A DNA stretch of 45,906 bases from Candidatus Frackibacter sp. WG13 (GTDB taxonomy: Bacteria; Bacillota; Halanaerobiia; Halobacteroidales; Acetohalobiaceae). Below, in pieces: positions 13,646 through 20,976 of this stretch. The stretch covers positions 1 to 45,906 of the forward strand of contig NZ_FOTT01000027.1 of the NCBI RefSeq assembly GCF_900114655.1, read 5' to 3'. The translations under genes and the position numbers were made by a program. The notes under the pieces are model-generated. The model worked only from the letters and a program-made list of their open reading frames with translations, was not told the DNA's origin and searched no databases. Position 1 is the first letter of the stretch, and each line of letters begins with the position of its first letter.

Positions 13646-13774
13646 TTAAGGCTAGTGAAGATATGATGTATATAAATAAGGTTAATTGAAATAATAAAAA
13701 ATGATAAGGTTATTTTTAGATGGTAGGAGAAGTTGATAGAAGACTAAGGGTGGTTGGGTTAAGGAGTGAAAAAA

Positions 13775-14296
13775 ATGGCCCACAAATACGTAAGTTGGAA
13801 AGTGTTGATTGTAGCTTTAGTTGTAGTAGGAGTTTTAGGATATGGAACTATTAAGTATACTGAACGTCCAAAATTTTGTGCCAGTTGTCATGAAATTGAA
13901 CCTGCATATAATAGTTGGAGTACTTCTACTCATGACGGTATTAATTGTATGGAATGTCATGCTGACGAAGGAAAAATTGGATTAATTAAGCGCAAATTGG
14001 CTGCCTCAAAAGAAATCTATAAACATCTGCTAGGTGAGACTGAAAATATTGAGGGAGATGTACCTAGTGAGCGTTGTATAAAATGTCACGAAGAGATTGA
14101 AACAGTAAGCGAGAGCGACCAAATTAATATTCCTCACCAAAAACATATAGGTGCTAATATTGAATGTACTGCTTGTCATGCAGAAGTCGTTCATGGAAGT
14201 ACAGGGTATAGAAGTCCTGGGATGGCGGTATGTTCTAAATGTCATGATGTTTATAATCCTGACAAGTGTATTAAATGCCATCAAAAAGTTAGTTAA
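13775..14296 (+). CDS. membrane-anchored multihaem c-type cytochrome, NapC/NrfH-like (six CXXCH)
   Basis: 173 residues with one N-terminal membrane anchor (about 10-28) and six haem-binding motifs: CASCH, CMECH, CIKCH, CTACH, CSKCH and CIKCH. NapC/NrfH proteins have four haems, so two are extra. They take electrons from the quinol pool and hand them to periplasmic reductases. No reductase lies next to it. A GTG at 13766 is in frame, but AAGGAG at 13761-13766 serves the ATG at 13775. It needs a cytochrome c maturation system that is not in this window. Confidence 0.88.
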   Translation: MAHKYVSWKVLIVALVVVGVLGYGTIKYTERPKFCASCHEIEPAYNSWSTSTHDGINCMECHADEGKIGLIKRKLAASKEIYKHLLGETENIEGDVPSERCIKCHEEIETVSESDQINIPHQKHIGANIECTACHAEVVHGSTGYRSPGMAVCSKCHDVYNPDKCIKCHQKVS

Positions 14297-14363
14297 AGAC
14301 GTTATAGAATTAATTTTACAATATTCTTAGCTAGTGTTTAATATGGATATGGAAGTAATATCG

Positions 14364-14396
14364 AAGCATCTCTTCTATATAGAAGAGATGCTTTTT
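14364..14396 (+). terminator. intrinsic terminator after the six-haem cytochrome gene
   Basis: AAGCATCTCTTCT/AGAAGAGATGCTT perfect stem with an ATAT loop and a T run. Confidence 0.92.
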
Positions 14397-14427
14397 AGTC
14401 TAAGTTAAAGTTAAAGGAGATGATCAA

Positions 14428-14874
14428 ATGTCAGAAACGGTTTTCTTTATAATTGCCTTAATTGCTGGTATATCAATGGCTATTCAAGGTTCATTAAATT
14501 CAGTATTTGGTAAGATAGTTGGTCTTTGGGAAGCAACATTTGTAGTTCATATAATTGCTACTACTTTAGTGGCGATTATTATATTTATCTTGAATTTAAA
14601 TAAAGGAGATTTTAGTAACTTAGCAGAGGCACCGTGGTATACGTATTTAGGTGGAATTTTAAATGTTATTATCTTATATGGAGTTGTAATTAGTATGCCA
14701 GAATTAGGAGTTGCTAATGCTACAACAATAATTATTGCGGGACAGGTTACTACAGCAGTAATTATTGATCATTTTGGTTTTTGGGGTTTAGATGCTGTAC
14801 CTTTTCAATGGATTAAGTTATTAGGAGCAGCCTTTTTAGCGGTCGGGGTTAGATTGATGTTAAGTACTGGATAA
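14428..14874 (+). CDS. small DMT transporter, DUF606/YdcZ family
   Basis: 148 residues with five predicted membrane helices. GISMAIQGSLNSVFGKIVG near the N-terminus and GGILNVIILYGVV in the middle are typical of the YdcZ/DUF606 family, which work as small dimeric transporters, often encoded as tandem pairs. Here only one copy is present. AAAGGAGATGA precedes the ATG. Substrate unknown. Confidence 0.85.
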   Translation: MSETVFFIIALIAGISMAIQGSLNSVFGKIVGLWEATFVVHIIATTLVAIIIFILNLNKGDFSNLAEAPWYTYLGGILNVIILYGVVISMPELGVANATTIIIAGQVTTAVIIDHFGFWGLDAVPFQWIKLLGAAFLAVGVRLMLSTG

Positions 14875-14900
14875 AAATAATTATATTAAAGACAAATCTA

Positions 14901-14961
14901 TTGACAATTCTTTTAGGAGACTATATAATATTATTAAAAGCACCCCAACTGGGAGGGGATA
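14901..14961 (+). promoter_or_regulatory. sigma-A promoter with C-tract/G-tract palindrome (site A)
   Basis: TTGACA (14901-14906), 17-nt spacer, TATAAT (14924-14929). From 14940 lies GCACCCCAACTGGGAGGGGAT, an imperfect palindrome placed at the expected transcription start and overlapping the ribosome-binding site of the ferredoxin gene. Equivalent arrangements occur at 16081-16142 and 19881-19946. The shape resembles CsoR/CstR-family operators. Confidence 0.6.
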
Positions 14962-14963
14962 GA

Positions 14964-15146
14964 GTGATTAAAAGGGCTTATATAGATTTAGAAGCTTGTA
15001 ATCAATCACGTGATTGTGAAGCGATGAAGCATTGTACTAAAGAGGCTATTAATTTTGATGATGGTAAGCTATTTATTGACCAACTTTGTAATGGGTGCGG
15101 AAAATGCAAAAAATATTGTAGTAATCAAGCAATTAAGTTAGTTTGA
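14964..15146 (+). CDS. small ferredoxin-like protein
   Basis: About 60 residues. A C-terminal CNGCGKCKKYCSNQAI is a standard [4Fe-4S] motif. The N-terminal part has Cys in a CX5CX5C spacing (CNQSRDCEAMKHC) that does not match a normal cluster motif, so this is a one-cluster ferredoxin with a second, degenerate or differently used Cys set. GTG start at 14964; an earlier in-frame start at 14901 would lie inside the promoter. It is led by palindrome site A and followed at 90 nt by thioredoxin. Confidence 0.8.
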   Translation: MIKRAYIDLEACNQSRDCEAMKHCTKEAINFDDGKLFIDQLCNGCGKCKKYCSNQAIKLV

Positions 15147-15235
15147 TAAGTAATTATGATTAATAAAGAGGAAAGAAAAGAGTTTTATAGAATAAATTAC
15201 TTAGTTAATAATAGTTAAAAGGAGGCGTTTAAGTT

Positions 15236-15559
15236 ATGGCAGGAGAAAATGTGATTGAATTAAATGAAGATAATTTTCAAGAAGAGGTTTTAGAAGTAGA
15301 GGGAAAGGTATTAGTTGATTTTTGGGCTCCTTGGTGTGGACCTTGCAAACAGATAGCACCATTTGTTGAGGAACTAGCTGATGAGTATGCTAGTGAATTA
15401 AAGGTAGGAAAGGTGAATGTTGATAATAATCAAAATTTAGCTGCTGAGTATGGTGTAATGAGTATTCCTACGTTACTTGTATTTGAAGGTGGAGAGATTA
15501 TTGAGAAGCAGGTTGGCTTTACTAATAAGGATGGTTTAAAGGAATTAATTAGTGATTAA
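15236..15559 (+). CDS. thioredoxin
   Basis: 107 residues with the canonical active site WCGPC (Cys34, Cys37) and the cis-proline loop SIPTLLVF. Cytoplasmic disulfide reductase and general reductant donor. AAAGGAGGCG precedes the ATG. Neighbours are a small ferredoxin, a rhodanese, a seleno-glutaredoxin and the class II ribonucleotide reductase, so it may supply electrons to that enzyme. A thioredoxin reductase is not present in this window. Confidence 0.96.
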   Translation: MAGENVIELNEDNFQEEVLEVEGKVLVDFWAPWCGPCKQIAPFVEELADEYASELKVGKVNVDNNQNLAAEYGVMSIPTLLVFEGGEIIEKQVGFTNKDGLKELISD

Positions 15560-15590
15560 TTATTTCTAATTAAACGTATAAACATTAAGT

Positions 15591-15623
15591 AGGAGTAGAG
15601 TTCTTTCTCTACTTCTATTTTTT
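15591..15623 (+). terminator. intrinsic terminator after thioredoxin
   Basis: AGTAGAG/CTCTACT stem with a 6-nt loop and a T-rich tail. Confidence 0.8.
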
Positions 15624-15666
15624 AGTCTGATTTTTATTTAAATTAATATTGGGAGGGTATAGTAAA

Positions 15667-16044
15667 GTGAATAATAAAGTTGTAGTAATTATATTACTTT
15701 TATTAGTAGGTTTTGTAATGTTTAGATCATTTTCGATGACAAAGAACCAAGGGTATCAAGATATTACTGCTTCAGAAGCTCAAAGAATGATTAAAAATGG
15801 AGATGTATTAGTAATTGATGTTAGACAGCCTTATGAGTTTCAAGAAGGACATATTAATGGTTCACAATTAATTCCTTTAGGCAAGATTAAGACTGCTTAT
15901 AAGGAACTTGACCCTAATCAAAAGATTATCTTAGTTTGTACAAGTGGATCACGAAGTTCAAGTGCTGCTAATTTTCTGTCGCAACAAGGCTTTACTAAAG
16001 TTTATAACTTAGATGGAGGTCTTTTAGCGTGGAGTAAACTATAA
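15667..16044 (+). CDS. membrane-anchored single-domain rhodanese
   Basis: 125 residues with an N-terminal membrane helix (about 4-20) and one rhodanese domain. The catalytic Cys is about residue 91 in CTSGSRSSSAA, and DVRQPYEFQEGHI is the usual first motif. It transfers sulfane sulfur to a thiophilic acceptor, probably on the outer face of the membrane if the helix is a simple anchor. GTG start at 15667 behind GGGAGGG; the earlier in-frame TTG at 15649 would overlap that site. A shared role with the thiol proteins around it is plausible. Confidence 0.88.
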   Translation: MNNKVVVIILLLLVGFVMFRSFSMTKNQGYQDITASEAQRMIKNGDVLVIDVRQPYEFQEGHINGSQLIPLGKIKTAYKELDPNQKIILVCTSGSRSSSAANFLSQQGFTKVYNLDGGLLAWSKL

Positions 16045-19853: not shown

Positions 19854-19886
19854 AAGACACTATCAAATTTGGTAGTGTCTTTGATT
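19854..19886 (+). terminator. intrinsic terminator after the SleB-type gene
   Basis: AAGACACTA/TAGTGTCTT stem; its tail overlaps the -35 box of the next promoter (19881-19886). Confidence 0.88.
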
Positions 19887-19946
19887 TATGATGAAAAGTT
19901 TGGTATAATATAACTATATAATAGTACCACCCTGAAGTGTGGGGTA
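19881..19946 (+). promoter_or_regulatory. sigma-A promoter with C-tract/G-tract palindrome (site C)
   Basis: TTGATT (19881-19886), 17-nt spacer, TATAAT (19904-19909), then TACCACCCTGAAGTGTGGGG from 19925, followed by TA. The palindrome is 15 nt after the -10 box. It drives the MerT-like selenoprotein gene. Confidence 0.6.
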
Positions 19947-19966
19947 GGAGAGGAGAGATAGGAACT

Positions 19967-20275
19967 ATGAAAGCAATTAAATCAAAAATAAGTAGTATTG
20001 GAGCAGTAATTTCAGCATTTTTTACTGGGATTTGTTGAATTACGCCAGTTATTTTTGCACTACTAGGGCTTAGTGGTGTCGGCTTAGGTCAATTGGCTAT
20101 CTTAGGTAAGTATCAACCTTACTTTTTGTTTTTAACTGTAATTATGTTAAGTTATTCTCATTATTCTTATTATGTTAAGGGACAGGGAGATAAGAAGACG
20201 AGGAATATTCTATGGTTTAGTACAATCATGGCTGGTAGTTTAATTCTGTATACTTATCGCTATCTTTTTATATAA
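19967..20275 (+). CDS. selenocysteine-containing MerT-like membrane protein
   Basis: 102 residues if UGA at 20036-20038 is decoded as selenocysteine (residue 24). The first helix then reads FFTGICUITPVIFALLGLSG. In MerT mercury transporters this position is a vicinal Cys pair (CC) followed by GP; here Cys-Sec replaces Cys-Cys. Three membrane helices are predicted and the C-terminus is short. A SECIS-like hairpin lies in the reading frame. GAGAGGAGAG precedes the ATG. It likely moves a thiophilic metal or metalloid; which one is not shown. No merA, merP or merR is present. Confidence 0.85.
20036..20078 (+). promoter_or_regulatory. UGA selenocysteine codon and bacterial SECIS hairpin (MerT-like)
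   Basis: After UGA (20036-20038), the 8-bp stem CACTACTA/TAGTGGTG (20058-20065, 20071-20078, one wobble) closes the loop GGGCT. The loop starts 27 nt after UGA and begins with G, as bacterial SECIS elements require. Confidence 0.75.
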
Positions 20276-20286
20276 TATAGATACCT

Positions 20287-20320
20287 AAATTAGCACCTAT
20301 GATAGGTGCTAATTTAATAT
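20287..20320 (+). terminator. hairpin terminator after the MerT-like gene
   Basis: AAATTAGCACCTAT/ATAGGTGCTAATTT perfect 14-bp stem; the tail is only moderately T-rich. Confidence 0.75.
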
Positions 20321-20355: not shown

Positions 20356-20976
20356 ATGACTAATGACCATACAGATAGAATAAAAAAAAGATATAATCGA
20401 GTAGCAAGAGTTTATGACCTTTTAGAAGCACCGATGGAATTGATGGCGCAAGGACGCTTAAGGGAAGAAGTCTTTTCTCATGTAGAAGGAAGAGTTTTGG
20501 AGGTAGGGATTGGGACAGGAAAGAATATCGATTACTATCCAGAAGGAGTAAAGGTAGTAGGAATTGATTTTAGTGAAAAAATGTTGGAACGTGCGAGAGA
20601 GAAGTTGCATAGAATAGATGTAAAGATAGATTTAATCGAAATGGATGCCCAAGATATGACTTTTGCTGATAATACTTTTGATACATTAGTGACTACTTGT
20701 GTTTTTTGTTCTGTGCCGGATCCAATTAAAGGTTTGAAGGAGATTAACCGGGTATGTAAGCCAGAAGGTAAAGTAATCATGTTAGAACATGTTCGTAGTA
20801 AAAATTTAGTCTTAGGAAAGTTTATGGATCTAATCAATCCAATTCCAGTGAGGTTATGGGGAGCTAATATAAATCGTAAGACTGTAGAAAATGTTAGAGA
20901 GGCAGGGTTGAAGATTGTAGAAGTAAAGGATGTAGCTACTTCATTAGTTAAGTTAATCATTGCTAAGCCTAGTTAA
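20356..20976 (+). CDS. class I SAM-dependent methyltransferase (UbiE-like)
   Basis: 206 residues with the SAM-binding motif I VLEVGIGTGKNIDYY (about 47-61), motif II region GIDFSEKMLERAREK and motif III around NTFDTLVTTCVFCSVPDP. It belongs to the broad UbiE/Coq5-like group; quinone or phospholipid (PmtA-like) methylation are options. Position between a MerT-like metal protein and the complex I operon is compatible with either, and does not decide. AAGGGAGAA precedes the ATG. Confidence 0.85.
   Translation: MTNDHTDRIKKRYNRVARVYDLLEAPMELMAQGRLREEVFSHVEGRVLEVGIGTGKNIDYYPEGVKVVGIDFSEKMLERAREKLHRIDVKIDLIEMDAQDMTFADNTFDTLVTTCVFCSVPDPIKGLKEINRVCKPEGKVIMLEHVRSKNLVLGKFMDLINPIPVRLWGANINRKTVENVREAGLKIVEVKDVATSLVKLIIAKPS

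Follow-up and report, generated by a model that had tools for sequence, protein, structure and literature searches.

A selenocysteine-containing MerT-family membrane protein in Candidatus Frackibacter sp. WG13: its in-frame UGA, Cys partner and gene neighbours

Membrane proteins of the MerT family that contain selenocysteine (Sec) are already known. Two selenoproteome reviews tabulate a Sec-containing "putative mercuric transport protein" (PF02411), for which the newer of the two gives the motif C/SxxU (example: ABB16073.1) (PMC9312934, PMC13188914); one of them credits the family to Zhang & Gladyshev 2007 (PMC13188914), and mercuric transport selenoproteins also appear in an ocean survey of 2008. 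Two NCBIfam models also lie close by: NF045683, a MerT/CopZ fusion-like heavy metal transport selenoprotein, and NF033560 (merT_RC607), the Bacillus RC607-type MerT.

The stretch of DNA analysed here (the window; 45,906 nucleotides of contig NZ_FOTT01000027.1 from Candidatus Frackibacter sp. WG13) adds a member to this family. Like the published mercuric transport selenoprotein, its product belongs to PF02411 and has one Sec, but where the published motif has Cys or Ser three residues before Sec (-3), the window protein has Gly there and Cys at -1, so that C/SxxU does not literally fit. The likewise Sec-containing NF045683 matches residues 10-73 with 30.4 bits, short of its cut-off of 375 bits; the window protein lacks the CopZ part, and in several relatives a CopZ-like protein is encoded separately nearby. 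The best NCBIfam match is NF033560, aligned to residues 5-97 over nearly its whole length of 97 positions: the window protein shares with this and with classical MerT the vicinal pair in helix 1 and the short form, but it scores 61.4 bits against a cut-off of 130, has Sec for the second Cys, and is without the second Cys pair and without a mer operon. To the known family we add a one-Cys rule, by which the partner of Sec stands at -1 or at -3, and a rhodanese neighbour of the members with Cys at -3. Neither the alternation nor gene neighbours are mentioned in the published tables (PMC9312934, PMC13188914), and no mention of the alternation or of a rhodanese operon was found in the literature examined, which excluded Haft (2023, 2025) and Zhang & Gladyshev 2007.

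The MerT-like ORF and the selenocysteine machinery

The gene occupies positions 19967-20275 of the forward strand and encodes 102 residues, with an in-frame TGA at codon 24 (20036-20038) and a TAA stop; it is easily overlooked, because the standard reading stops at codon 23. Translated with TGA as Sec (U), the product begins MKAIKSKISSIGAVISAFFTGICUITPVIFALLGLSGVG and ends LYTYRYLFI, Sec24 following immediately on Cys23 in the first membrane helix. The first-pass annotation had proposed a MerT-like protein with UGA at codon 24 from the letters alone, and both parts hold: this is the only TGA within the ORF, and the protein, with Sec read as Cys, matches PF02411 at 41.4 bits against a gathering score of 32.9 (34.7 bits in a six-frame search). 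A profile search of the PDB gave as its best match only MerF (2m67; E 0.077, not significant), and an AlphaFold2 model built from a two-row alignment (mean pLDDT 63) was set aside.

The genome carries SelB (397.6 bits), an adjoining tRNA-Sec (68.4 bits) and, beside selB, a SelA-like ORF read from the sequence; together these would translate UGA24 as selenocysteine, guided by a hairpin just downstream. SelB also scores above its cut-off in every one of the 24 further genomes handled that carry the TGA form. Since SelB is common hereabouts (33 of 35 genomes tested; G418, which has a Cys form, lacks it), its co-occurrence is a consistency check and not strong evidence.

Conservation of the UGA and of a SECIS-type hairpin

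Among 199 genomes around that of the window, 18 have a match, and all matches but one carry one internal TGA; searching 398 genomes of the phylum with a profile brought up further members, again mostly with TGA. The 30 non-redundant Sec members, which come from the window, 24 other Bacillota-type genomes and one Chloroflexi contig (locus L002), all have TGA at the same codon. In the aligned family the column holds TGA in 32 of 36 rows and TGT or TGC in the other four, one of which (L109) is the same locus as L019. Alignment with homologues had been set beforehand as a refutation test: Cys homologues do align at codon 24, and in the more distant of them (rows L108-L110) it is the second Cys of a CC pair that stands at the Sec position, which agrees with the earlier assignment of the UGA to the latter of the two adjacent Cys in the first helix. 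Every close family member sampled here uses Sec, and, judged from these rows, the conservation of the TGA is far beyond chance. Past the TGA, amino-acid-changing differences per site are rarer than silent ones in the compared pairs (pN 0.26 and pS 0.51 for the window and L003), and by this measure the downstream region is under purifying selection.

The bacterial SECIS-type hairpin (20057-20079, forward strand) has the 8-bp stem and GGGCT loop that the first-pass annotation had described at a suitable distance from the UGA. Positions 20058-20065 pair with 20071-20078 (nine pairs if 20057/20079 is counted), and the loop, at 20066-20070, begins 27 nt after the UGA. In the 30 non-redundant Sec members taken together, pairing is seen at 219 of 270 stem positions, against 161 +/- 7 (maximum 182) in 300 within-gene synonymous-codon shuffles, a null that corrects only partly for shared descent; because these shuffles preserve the protein sequence, the hairpin is not a by-product of the protein. 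All but one of the 30 hairpin regions (29/30) fold more stably than their shuffled versions do on average, the loop starts with GG in 29 of 30, with G in the apical loop as in bacterial SECIS elements, and column pairs covary (position 30/36, for example, is CG, AU, GC or UA). The RNAalifold consensus on all 30 rows is weak (-1.18 kcal/mol) and was reached by 0 of 200 shuffles; the pair counts against shuffles are the better measure. A gathering scan of the whole window with Rfam gave no matches, and that library may hold no model fit for bacterial SECIS. By the pair counts the hairpin is conserved beyond synonymous-codon expectation and is under selection.

These comparisons also bear on the reading of the TGA as a true stop, followed by a decaying pseudogene or a chance ORF. 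Nothing favours it except translation by table 11, and the comparison with relatives contradicts it: the same TGA in 30 members, purifying selection beyond it and a conserved hairpin, with Sec machinery in the genome, leave it practically no probability. We regard the gene as confirmed, at the level of sequence, as a genuine MerT-family member with UGA read as selenocysteine, and as far as sequence goes the product is a selenoprotein.

Cys partners and gene neighbours across the family

In all 30 Sec members a single Cys accompanies Sec at one of two positions, -3 in 15 (C-3 members) and -1 in 15 (C-1 members); none has both and none has neither. Many relatives read CxxU or SxCU. The window protein (GICU, hence C-1) and its nearest relative (GFCU) belong to a group with good support (97/97), the rest of which have CxTU. 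On this tree, which was built with the Cys/Sec pair columns masked, the arrangement switches at least three times, so that the one-Cys rule does not go back to one inherited accident, although independent events are still few. The earlier proposal that Cys-Cys had become Cys-Sec therefore stands as regards position, Sec occupying the second Cys of CC, while the history that it implies is uncertain: because the window protein nests among CxTU relatives, its vicinal CU may have arisen secondarily, rather than by direct replacement of one Cys in a classical CC pair.

For 14 of the 15 C-3 members, the Chloroflexi contig included, the gene that comes directly next lies on the same strand and encodes an extracytoplasmic rhodanese, most of these rhodaneses showing by eye a lipobox or lipoprotein signal; none of the C-1 members has a rhodanese directly behind it. 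The window gene is C-1, yet nested in the rhodanese clade. An independent-pairs test of C-3 against rhodanese neighbour found only 2-3 independent pairs, too few for significance. Thioredoxin, thioredoxin-reductase-like and CcmH-like genes recur near family members.

Several C-1 members lie near metal genes, of MerR(Hg), ArsR, ArsA or CopZ-like type. An Hg-type MerR lies just upstream of the Sec-MerT gene in G062/G108 (169.9 bits against a cut-off of 150.85), ArsR-type regulators and CopZ-like proteins are encoded near several, and ArsA- and ACR3-like ORFs, identified by reading the sequence only, near some; the same kind of reading gave CsoR/CopA-like neighbours for two C-3 loci, L060 and L105.

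Some loci have arrangements of their own. In L044 (G180:C369) the Sec-MerT gene stands in an arsenic-type row with ArsR-like regulators, a permease, an ArsD-like protein, an ArsA-like ATPase and an ACR3-like carrier. L054-L056 and L103 make up a separate C-1 group: here the gene is flanked by ABC-F ATPase-like and SfsA-like genes, and no adjoining metal or sulfur gene was seen. In L002 (JACPRP010000060.1), an ORF on the opposite strand, about 830-1540 bases after the Sec-MerT start and adjoining the Sec-MerT and rhodanese genes, joins a glutaredoxin-like N-terminus to a second MerT-like membrane portion that has a CC pair.

Surroundings of the window gene and its possible role

The neighbours of the window gene are cell-wall hydrolase, methyltransferase and complex I genes. 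On the forward strand, a terminator-like hairpin (19854-19881) follows the upstream cell-wall hydrolase gene and separates it from the MerT-like gene; it is followed by a promoter-like TTGATT-17-TATAAT with TG before the -10 (19881-19909), a consensus match only, the scan having found one site against four on average in shuffles. A purine-rich Shine-Dalgarno-like stretch, read from the sequence, precedes the ATG (19947-19957), and 3' of the gene lies a perfect 15-bp inverted repeat (20286-20316), terminator-like though not called by the terminator scan. Because it has the hairpin and promoter-like site upstream and the inverted repeat downstream, the gene is probably transcribed alone. Directly 3' of it lies a gene for a UbiE-like class I methyltransferase (20356-20976); in L002 and L050-L052, too, related methyltransferases are encoded no more than 6 kb from the Sec-MerT gene, a putative link.

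The reading that we prefer, at a probability of roughly 0.6, is that the protein is a MerT-family carrier whose Cys-Sec pair binds and transfers a soft metal or metalloid at the membrane. Three hydrophobic helices are expected from the family; Cys23 and Sec24 in helix 1 would form a thiol/selenol pair for a soft ion such as Hg(II), Cu(I) or As(III), which they would grip more tightly than two thiols could, and the bound ion would be handed across or along the membrane. What makes this soft-metal role the likeliest is homology to MerT, together with the invariant pairing of Cys with Sec and the metal-linked relatives. Classical MerT has a second Cys pair in the loop between helices 2 and 3; its absence from the window protein counts against a metal carrier, and the view is weakened further because the closest clade accompanies rhodanese and not metal genes.

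As for the metal, binding of Hg(II) or other soft metals by a selenol in the helix had been anticipated: soft-metal binding by the Cys-Sec pair is indeed likely, with mercury as one candidate among such metals. A classical Hg(II) importer feeding mercuric reductase would accord with the MerT homology and with the Hg-type MerR encoded ahead of the Sec-MerT gene in G062/G108. In the window, however, no mer, ars or cop gene was seen beside the gene, nor any MerP among its neighbours, and in the genome neither MerA (best 359 bits against a curated cut-off of 454) nor an Hg-type MerR was found above cut-off. A full mercury-resistance pathway in this genome is therefore unlikely, and we regard the importer as improbable.

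The rhodanese neighbours suggest another role. In the branch that includes the window gene, the protein may carry sulfane sulfur, selenium or reducing equivalents from one side of the membrane to the other: its Cys-Sec pair would exchange persulfide with an extracytoplasmic rhodanese and be reset from the inside by thioredoxin, by analogy with DsbD-type relays. The recurrence of rhodanese as next gene among C-3 members, the thioredoxin, thioredoxin-reductase-like and CcmH-like genes nearby, and the rhodanese/DsbD fusion selenoprotein TsoB in NCBIfam all favour such a role, as does a locus 4-5 kb upstream in both the window and G002. In the window this locus encodes a membrane-anchored rhodanese (15649-16044, forward strand; PF00581, 89.7 bits), a possible partner of the Sec-MerT protein, beside a thioredoxin (15236-15559, forward strand; TIGR01068, 124.5 bits over a cut-off of 96.8) that could be the cytosolic reductant. 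The rhodanese is related to that directly behind Sec-MerT in 14 relatives, and in G062, G105 and G137 its best matches are the Sec-MerT-adjacent copies. It lies, however, 3.9 kb upstream of the Sec-MerT gene and outside its operon, and G001 keeps the thioredoxin-rhodanese pair with no Sec-MerT found, which weakens the link in this family; the neighbour pattern, moreover, comes from few independent events, and the MerT homology and metal-linked relatives within the same family also speak against a sulfur or redox function. We hold it as a less likely but serious alternative to the soft-metal carrier. Slightly less likely again is the stricter version, in which the rhodanese-linked Sec-MerTs would not be metal importers at all, only membrane selenol-thiol relays that connect extracytoplasmic rhodanese with cytosolic thioredoxin and pass on sulfane sulfur, selenium or electrons; Sec would be obligatory, and Cys could stand at -1 or -3.

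The thioredoxin and rhodanese genes close a row (13766-16044) that opens with a NapC/NrfH-like multihaem cytochrome, a small permease-like protein and a ferredoxin, and whose last four genes are kept in G001 (L116). The G001 rhodanese was ruled out as a selenoprotein, the TGA preceding its ORF.

It would be unusual chemistry for metal or sulfur to be bound by a selenol that lies buried within a membrane helix. The alternation of the Cys partner between -1 and -3 and the rhodanese operon offer testable clues to a role for MerT-type selenoproteins beyond "putative mercuric transport".
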